From: Leifsonia sp. 71-9
Lineage (GTDB): Bacteria > Actinomycetota > Actinomycetes > Actinomycetales > Microbacteriaceae
Length of the DNA: 64,000 nt
Assembly (NCBI RefSeq): GCF_001898805.1
Contig: NZ_MKVJ01000018.1
Span: 1-64,000, forward strand
Direction of reading: 5' to 3'
Both the position numbers and the translations under genes were made by a program. Shown in pieces: positions 50,311 to 51,792 of this stretch; the stretch's first letter is position 1; each line of letters begins with the position of its first letter. Below the pieces are notes generated by a model, which was not told where the DNA came from, did not search any database, and saw only the letters and a program-made list of their open reading frames with translations.

Positions 50311-51174
50311 CTAGGGCAAGGTGTACCCGCCCTGCGCCTCCACGGCCAGGCCGTCGGCGAGCAGCCCCGCCAGCGCGCGGTCCCGCTGGGCCGCGTCTGC
50401 CCAGACACCGTCGAGTTCGGCGGCCGTCACCGGGATGTGCGACGCACGCAGCTCGGCCAGGATGAGGCCGCGGACCTGACGGTCGCTGCCCTCGTACTTC
50501 TTCTGCACCGCTTTGCGCGGTCCGTCGTATGCCGGGTACCCGGCCGCCCGCCAGGAGCAGGTCGTGGCGAGAGGGCATTCGTCGCAGCGCGGGGTGCGGG
50601 CGACGCAGACGATCGCGCCGAGCTCCATCATGCCCGCGTTGAAGGCGGCCGCGGCCGGTCGATCGTCCGGGAGCAGAGCCTCCATCGCCGCGAGGTCGCG
50701 TCGCGCGCTCGGCGGCCCCGGCTCGCCCTGCCCGTCGACGGCACGCGCGATCACGCGCCGGATGTTGGTGTCGACGACGGGGTGCCGCTCGCCGTACGCG
50801 AAGACCGCGACGGCGCGGGCGGTGTAGTCGCCGATGCCGGGGAGCGCGAGCAGTTCGGTCACGTCGTCGGGCACCACGCCGCAGTGCCGCTCCGTGATCG
50901 CGACGGCCGCGGCGTGCAGCCAGAGGGCGCGGCGCGGGTAGCCCAGGGACTTCCAGGCGCGCACCGCCTCCCCGGAGGGCACGGCGGCGAGGGCGGCTGG
51001 CGTCGGCCAGCGCTCCAGCCACTCCTCCAGGCGCGGGATGACGCGGGTCACCGGCGTCTGCTGCAGCATGAACTCGCTCACCAGCGTTCCCCACGCGGTG
51101 AATCCGTCGCGGCGCCAGGGCAGGTCGCGGCGGTTGGCGTGGTACCAGTCGACGACGTCGGTCGCGAGGCTCAC
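50311..51174 (-). CDS. mutY: A/G-specific adenine glycosylase
   Basis: Removes adenine mispaired with 8-oxoguanine. The 287-aa protein has the catalytic Glu E34 in SEFMLQQTPV, the helix-hairpin-helix LPGIGDYTARAV, the catalytic Asp in VVDTNIRRV, and the 4Fe-4S ligands in CVARTPRCDECPLATTC (spacing C-x6-C-x2-C-x5-C). The C-terminal domain is short, so the NUDIX-like 8-oxoG recognition domain of E. coli MutY is reduced or absent. The GTG overlaps the stop of the upstream CGNR-type regulator (GTGA). Confidence 0.92.
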   Translation of the reverse strand: MSLATDVVDWYHANRRDLPWRRDGFTAWGTLVSEFMLQQTPVTRVIPRLEEWLERWPTPAALAAVPSGEAVRAWKSLGYPRRALWLHAAAVAITERHCGVVPDDVTELLALPGIGDYTARAVAVFAYGERHPVVDTNIRRVIARAVDGQGEPGPPSARRDLAAMEALLPDDRPAAAAFNAGMMELGAIVCVARTPRCDECPLATTCSWRAAGYPAYDGPRKAVQKKYEGSDRQVRGLILAELRASHIPVTAAELDGVWADAAQRDRALAGLLADGLAVEAQGGYTLP

Positions 51175-51728
51175 GCGCGCTTGGTCCGCTCGCGGTAGGC
51201 GCGCACACGGAGGCGGGTGGAGCAGGTGTCGCAGCACGCCTTGCGGACGTGGCTGGCGTCGAGGTAGATCTTGCGGCAGCCCGGGTCGCTGCACTGGCCG
51301 AAGTCCTGCGGGTGGTGGCCGAGGTCGGTGGTGGCGGACGCGACGATCCGGGCGAGAGCCGCCCGCGTGTCCGCCGGGTTGCGGGGCCGGAGCGCGTCGC
51401 TGCCGGCGAGCTCGAAGGCGGAGCCCGGAGCCCCGACGCCGCCGAGGACGCGCACCGCCTGCTCGGCGTCGGGGGAGCCCGGGGGCAGCGGGAGGCCGAG
51501 GGCGCCGGTCGCGAGGGTGCGGAGAGCCTCCCGGGTCGCCTGTGCGAGGGCGAGGTCGTCGTCGCCGGGAGGGGCGGTCGGAGCGAGCCCGACCGCGGCG
51601 AACCACTCCGCGAGGCGTTCCGGCGACGTGAGCCGGTCGAGCGGGTCCTCGGTGTACGGGTACCGCAGCGTCCCGAGCAGATCGGTCCACGCGGCGCCCG
51701 TGTTGAACACGAAGTCGAGTTCGGCCAT
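51171..51728 (-). CDS. CGNR-type zinc-finger regulator
   Basis: A 185-aa protein of the ABATE/CGNR family: an N-terminal domain (ELDFVFNTGAAWTDLLGTLR, LAEWFAAVGL) followed by a zinc finger with four cysteines, CSDPGCRKIYLD and CCDTCSTRLRVRAYRER. The name-giving CGNR is here CSTR. Members are thought to be transcription factors with a ligand-binding N-terminus. The gene is divergent from a DMT transporter, and two matching palindromes lie in the 52-bp spacer. TACACT lies 6 nt before the ATG, so its mRNA is probably leaderless. Confidence 0.8.
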   Translation of the reverse strand: MAELDFVFNTGAAWTDLLGTLRYPYTEDPLDRLTSPERLAEWFAAVGLAPTAPPGDDDLALAQATREALRTLATGALGLPLPPGSPDAEQAVRVLGGVGAPGSAFELAGSDALRPRNPADTRAALARIVASATTDLGHHPQDFGQCSDPGCRKIYLDASHVRKACCDTCSTRLRVRAYRERTKRA

Positions 51729-51737
51729 GGCCCCAGT

Positions 51738-51792
51738 GTAACGGGTTGACACGTTACTCGGCACGTGAGAGCGTAACGCTGTGAACCGTTAC
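51738..51792. promoter_or_regulatory. two copies of a GTAACG-N8-CGTTAC operator
   Basis: The perfect palindrome GTAACG-N8-CGTTAC occurs twice, at 51738-51757 and 51773-51792, with centres 35 bp apart and different 8-bp cores (GGTTGACA and CTGTGAAC). They fill the spacer between the divergent CGNR-type regulator and DMT transporter genes. The second copy covers the GTG start at 51781. TTGACA at 51746-51751 could be a -35. Confidence 0.7.

Follow-up and report, generated by a model that had tools for sequence, protein, structure and literature searches.

Twin GTAACG palindromes between a CGNR/ABATE regulator gene and an EamA transporter gene in Leifsonia sp. 71-9: a predicted operator and its variants in related actinobacteria

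Which protein recognises the two palindromes that lie between a CGNR/ABATE regulator gene and a divergently oriented EamA-family transporter gene in Leifsonia sp. 71-9? The question arises in a window of 64,000 nucleotides (the whole stretch of DNA that was analysed; contig NZ_MKVJ01000018.1, positions 1 to 64,000), and it concerns a family that is widespread but poorly characterised with respect to its targets. Of 246 genomes sampled from the class, at least 103 have a CGNR/ABATE match (E up to 1e-15). The family is thus common in actinobacteria, yet its DNA binding is so far a prediction only in the literature found, where PMC2954205 is the single family-centred paper among the open-access papers listed. 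No published binding site of a CGNR/ABATE protein was found in the open-access full-text literature, parts of which were covered (subscription journals are outside this scope). We believe, with high confidence, that the two palindromes together form a twin operator for the CGNR regulator encoded next to them: its dimers would bind there and keep both genes repressed, and a ligand would release them.

The first-pass annotation, made from the letters of the DNA, had described two copies of GTAACG-N8-CGTTAC at 51738-51792 in a 52-bp divergent spacer, with different 8-bp cores and with one copy over the transporter start codon. This description proved accurate in every respect. The spacer (51729-51780) extends from the CGNR ATG (51728, minus strand) to the EamA GTG (51781, plus strand), the GTG lies inside site 2, and the cores are GGTTGACA and CTGTGAAC. 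The twin sites are 35 bp apart, and site 1 is 9 bp from the CGNR ATG. The features are collected in Table 1.

Table 1. Genes, predicted operator sites and putative promoter elements of the divergent locus (window coordinates)
Feature	Position	Strand	Basis
CGNR regulator gene, 185 aa, ABATE domain and CGNR zinc finger	51174..51728	-	PF07336, PF11706
Putative CGNR -10 (TACACT), overlapping site 1, 6 nt before ATG	51735..51740	-	TANNNT
Operator site 1 (predicted), GTAACG-GGTTGACA-CGTTAC	51738..51757	.	exact match (GTAACGGGTTGACACGTTAC, 0 mismatches); kept in orthologous spacers
Putative transporter -35 (TTGACA), within site 1	51746..51751	+	TTGAC in 11/15 aligned spacers
Putative transporter -10 (GAGCGT), 17 nt after -35, 6 nt before GTG	51769..51774	+	weak consensus match
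Operator site 2 (predicted), GTAACG-CTGTGAAC-CGTTAC	51773..51792	.	exact match (GTAACGCTGTGAACCGTTAC, 0 mismatches); kept in orthologous spacers
EamA-family (drug/metabolite transporter) gene, GTG start, 329 aa	51781..52770	+	PF00892, E 2e-26

The regulator matches PF07336 (E 5.1e-13, 50.2 bits; curated cut-off 24.4) and PF11706 (E 1.7e-5, 24.9 bits; curated cut-off 24), and both domains are present in 15 of 15 aligned members (E up to 0.001). In a sequence search of the PDB, the only solved relative with a significant E-value was 3h0n (one entry, one chain). It is the structure of Jann_2411, a protein that resembles the window protein in its two domains (PF07336 and PF11706), in four zinc cysteines and in length. 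The zinc-ligand cysteines C146, C151, C165 and C169, invariant in all 15 aligned sequences, are the counterparts of Cys147/152/168/172 of Jann_2411 (PMC2954205, first part of section 3). The literal CGNR signature in the last helix is absent from the window protein, which has CSTR instead; this signature is not obligatory, because Jann_2411 itself has CQNR according to the same part of PMC2954205. That part presents Jann_2411 as a likely dimer, predicted to sense a ligand and to bind DNA through its treble-clef finger, and gives no DNA target (PMC2954205), whereas here an operator, its variants in relatives and a candidate base-reading residue are proposed. The CGNR gene is followed directly, on its own strand, by a gene for a MutY-like A/G-specific adenine glycosylase (window 50314-51174), which may be co-transcribed with it.

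The 329-aa transporter contains PF00892 (93.3 bits, cut-off 28.2) in two stretches. Four NCBIfam models match it, all far under their cut-offs, and therefore no substrate is assigned. The match to the YedA model (NF008432) is weak, PF00892 and the two EamA stretches being the shared features. In Pseudonocardia sp. CNS-004 the corresponding EamA gene (L066:2754-3802) seems split over two frames, possibly through an assembly error.

How specific are the palindromes to this spacer? The genome-wide search proposed in the first-pass annotation returned no unrelated exact occurrence: the whole own genome (4,475,219 bases, 4.48 Mb) holds 2 exact matches to GTAACG-N8-CGTTAC, both of them here. There are no one-mismatch N8 sites in this genome. 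With up to two mismatches, 39 places (twin sites included) were counted versus 30 for a reversed-pattern control, and there is no clear sign of an excess of further two-mismatch sites. No wider regulon was found in the own genome among N7 and N8 sites with up to one mismatch; the pattern GTNACC-N9-GGTNAC has 2 exact places there. A shuffle control of the window (up to two mismatches) had a mean of 0.71 and reached two matches in 15 of 100 shuffles, and it does not measure the occurrence of two exact copies 35 bp apart. The genome has three other ABATE paralogs, two of which have no site and the third an N9-like one with a single mismatch. L249, an ABATE-family gene of the genome other than that of the window, stands opposite a gene judged EamA-like by eye and has no clear palindrome of this class; the profile of the N8-linked EamA partners gave no match to it.

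The sites and the regulator gene travel together. A close CGNR ortholog is present in 3 of 28 genomes of the genus (100, 80 and 57% identity; the next best is 36%), and the paired GTAACG-N8-CGTTAC sites are found in the same three genomes, always as a pair; both ortholog and sites are missing from the other 25. The comparison of orthologous spacers, also suggested at first pass, shows the palindromes conserved. When 60 genomes were searched (the own genome included), site pairs turned up in three: the own genome, G006 and G011. G029 and G056 have a single hit each, within long, unrelated reading frames that we take to be rho and a UDP-galactopyranose-mutase-like gene. A protein-pattern search of the contigs of the genome collection with the window protein alone gave no relative, and plasmid records gave four Streptomyces matches at about 33% identity.

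A more general association was sought from the DNA side, in a scan of 84,980 genomes (species) for GTAAC-N10-GTTAC occurring twice within 30 bp, with no protein information used. It returned 99 places, and a CGNR gene adjoins the sites in 12 of them (the gene in 11 loci; in L136 its beginning, cut by the end of the locus). All 12 also have a divergent EamA gene, assigned by Pfam in 11 and, in L136, by tblastn (67% identity to the EamA protein of L056). Titles were listed for 80 of the 99 places; nine of these are recognisable actinobacteria by name, and all nine are among the 12. The remaining 87 places have no CGNR gene by tblastn, and many are in visibly repetitive sequence. The distance between twin sites varies among loci (27-28, 34-38 and 50 bp), so that cooperativity in a fixed phase is not supported.

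Some of the places in other phyla have neighbours of their own. In Enterovibrio/Grimontia (L052:3198-3245, L068:6086-6133 and similar loci) a ParA-like ATPase gene adjoins the paired GTAAC-N10-GTTAC sites in the two loci tested; these sites may serve in the partition or control of a replicon and have no relation to CGNR. In Flavobacterium (L048:5784-5831, L113:1172-1219 and similar loci) SatD-like genes are close to the paired GTAAC sites in the two loci tested, and L048 has in addition an HMGL-like gene nearby.

Can a different regulator, encoded elsewhere, bind the palindromes, the CGNR gene being merely another of its targets? Many regulators of the TetR, GntR and MarR types bind palindromes of this size, and paired GTAAC sites also adjoin unrelated genes in other phyla (SatD and HMGL in Flavobacterium, ParA-like in Enterovibrio and Grimontia). 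When the reading frames of the 12 CGNR-linked loci (up to 8 kb) are compared all against all, the result argues otherwise, at least for nearby genes, which are what the comparison covers. EamA recurs in 12 loci and CGNR in 11; the other frames recurring in at least four loci all have one of their ends within about 600 bp of the sites and are taken to be overlapping frames of the CGNR and EamA genes, which leaves CGNR and EamA as the only families recurring in four or more. Two further observations, given below, also speak against another regulator: the site classes cluster on the CGNR tree even where the partner gene is of the CMD, PTE, glyoxalase, MDMPI, dehydrogenase or L-PSP kind, and residue 174 of the CGNR protein matches the arm. 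We consider a different regulator very improbable and retain the adjacent CGNR protein as the binding one.

From the protein side, 123 CGNR genes were gathered by protein similarity alone (7 + 19 new + 28 + 9 new + 60). The window itself (L148) and L159, which is the same place as L037, were dropped before counting; L161, L222, L227 and L232 were kept despite an in-frame stop in the open frame. In the 19-gene sample up to eight candidates per genome were scored and in the class-wide sample up to 13; the class-wide search of 246 genomes gave 30 loci, of which 28 were kept, the order search around G481 covered 5 genomes, and the last 60 are the next listed places taken in list order. An exact GTNACS palindrome with six-base arms is present within 220 bp upstream of 48 of the 123 genes, a count which, like the others of this set, is inflated by loci from sister species that are not independent. 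Inside the gene (a 226-bp stretch) it is present in none of the 123, and 50 shuffles gave a mean of 0.38 and a maximum of 2. Gaps from 4 to 13 were tested, and only 7, 8 and 9 occur. At 11 or more of the 12 arm bases a related palindrome precedes 81 of the 123 genes (ten shuffles, 0-2; reversed control, 0) and none precedes the other 42, the templates for this count and for the classes below having been chosen after the first loci were seen. The 60 loci were fetched afterwards, and 14 of them have the exact GTNACS palindrome, in all cases N9. Each of the nine newly gathered genes has paired GTAACG-N7-CGTTAC sites (9/9).

Spacer and arm classes are clustered on the phylogeny of the regulator. 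On a maximum-likelihood tree of the 123 proteins the site labels change 21 times, compared with 54.2 for shuffled labels. The GTAACG class with N7 or N8 fills one clade (23 of 23 rows, one GTAATG row included; support 100/90), within which N7 is a single group of 18 (100/89) and N8 is not a single group. The N9 sites make up 57 rows (GTAACC 28, GTCACC 19, GACACC 5, GTTACC 3, GTAACG 2), and GTAACC-N8 is found in one row. The 42 rows that have no site at the 11/12 threshold include a clade of 15. Upstream repeats resembling GAACC-N9-GGTTC, some of them imperfect, were seen at L187, L189, L196, L215, L223, L230, L235, L239, L241, L244 and L245, a CGNR subclade without GTNAC sites; they are perhaps a further operator class. 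Repeats of the GAACC type are seen in part of the clade of 15. In L029 the arms read GTAATG/CATTAC, one arm deviating, and this is a concerted change across both dyads.

The partner genes differ between classes. Among five N7 loci, Pfam assigns four CMD-like partners and one phosphotriesterase-like; among five N9 loci, two are glyoxalase-like, and there is one each of MDMPI, zinc dehydrogenase and L-PSP. The partner in L025, a locus without a site at the 11/12 threshold, gave no Pfam family. By the profile of EamA partners, 6 of the 123 CGNR genes face an EamA gene of this subfamily: the window, G011, G006, L029 and L147, all with an N8 pair, and L191 with a GTAACC-N9 site (EamA gene at L191:213-1181). 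Linkage to EamA is therefore not confined to N8 and occurs in the N9 class too. L038 gives a seventh, weaker EamA match, which lies on the opposite side of the CGNR gene. The proposal made at first pass, that the palindrome is a binding motif for the CGNR/ABATE family, is to be modified accordingly: computation upholds it in that the two copies are the only exact ones in the genome and orthologous spacers keep them, and the exact N8 form is limited to EamA-linked members of one clade.

Is there a counterpart of these classes in the protein? Residue 174 lies in the finger's last helix and varies with the innermost arm base: all 25 proteins with G at that base have Arg, and of the 56 with C, 54 have Lys and two have Ala. 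Three proteins with Arg174 (L209, L226, L228) have no site at the 11/12 threshold. Two of the Arg/G cases (L197, L201) are outside the 23-row clade, so the match is seen at two places of the tree. Like the conservation of the sites, their linkage and the clustering of spacers and arms, it is a computed observation. By alignment of the cysteines (a numbering match made here) position 174 is Lys177 of Jann_2411, which the authors of PMC2954205 place among the conserved positive residues suggesting a nucleic-acid binding site. It is tempting to propose a simple evolving code in which CGNR dimers read inverted GTNAC half-sites, residue 174 reads the innermost arm base and the spacer of 7, 8 or 9 bp is set by the clade; we lean slightly towards it.

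What would binding do to transcription? A strict promoter scan found no promoter, so the promoter elements of Table 1 rest on comparison, namely on 15 EamA-linked spacers oriented by script (L058 and L136 are outside this set). Eleven of the 15 share a TTGAC at one position of site 1, and 11 have NANNNT 17-18 nt downstream; on the CGNR strand, 14 of the 15 show a TANNNT that overlaps the left arm of site 1. The TTGAC in the core of site 1 is read as the -35 element of the transporter. An EamA-frame start codon is 7-8 nt into site 2 in eight of the 15 spacers; in L066 and L079 a start-like codon occupies this place in a different frame, and the remaining five have none. The divergent transcripts are probably leaderless in the window and its closest relatives, judging from these positions; this does not extend to all, because 7 of 15 lack the in-frame start.

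In those eight spacers the right arm of site 2 is coding and reads N-R-Y or I-R-Y with a start at offset 8, and K-A-L, K-S-L, K-P-L or N-P-L in the frame of offset 7. The arm is kept in two reading frames, and so selection acts on the DNA. The first-pass annotation had taken the differing cores as a sign of selection on the arms; the core is under some constraint as well, site 1 keeping its TTGAC (11/15). Could the arms be nothing but repeated -10/-35 elements, or a chance palindrome? The TAC of the arm is indeed part of the putative CGNR -10, and TTGAC is in the core of site 1. However, this would leave unexplained the perfect dyads with fixed spacers of 7, 8 or 9, the conservation of the outer arm of site 2 within coding sequence, and the ratio of 81/123 to 0-2 in shuffles; we regard this explanation as negligible.

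For the twin operator of the CGNR regulator we presume direct binding, with one dimer per palindrome and one zinc-finger/helix unit per GTAACG arm. An occupied site 1 would cover the -35 of the transporter promoter together with the -10 of the CGNR promoter, and an occupied site 2 would cover the -10/start region of the transporter. Both divergent transcripts would then be off, i.e., the regulator would repress itself and the EamA exporter. Release would come when the ABATE domain senses a small molecule, which is probably a substrate of the transporter. The mode is most likely repression: site 1 sits over core elements of both putative promoters and site 2 over the transporter start, positions from which an operator usually blocks the polymerase. 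A role as activator, of both genes or of one gene with repression of the other, is unlikely, although the location of site 2, 45-64 bp before the CGNR ATG, would permit activation of CGNR, and the putative transporter -10 is weak.

The repressing arrangement has a familiar parallel. TetR-tetA is a divergent repressor-exporter pair with twin operators, and the window pair is like it in having a divergent regulator and exporter and twin palindromes in a short spacer, where they would overlap both putative promoters; by this analogy, autorepression may be expected for the CGNR protein. The regulators themselves are unrelated: TetR is an HTH protein, whereas the window regulator has a treble-clef finger and an ABATE domain, and the window transcripts are probably leaderless.

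The motif was found both ways, from DNA to protein and from protein to DNA, and together with the site classes and a candidate residue this makes target recognition by CGNR proteins directly testable. The members tested are linked to single neighbouring genes, which encode exporters or small enzymes (CMD-like, glyoxalase-like, L-PSP). The sites before relatives in many actinobacteria provide a first testable rule of DNA recognition for the CGNR family; if the code is true, the operators of many actinobacterial CGNR regulators could be predicted from it.
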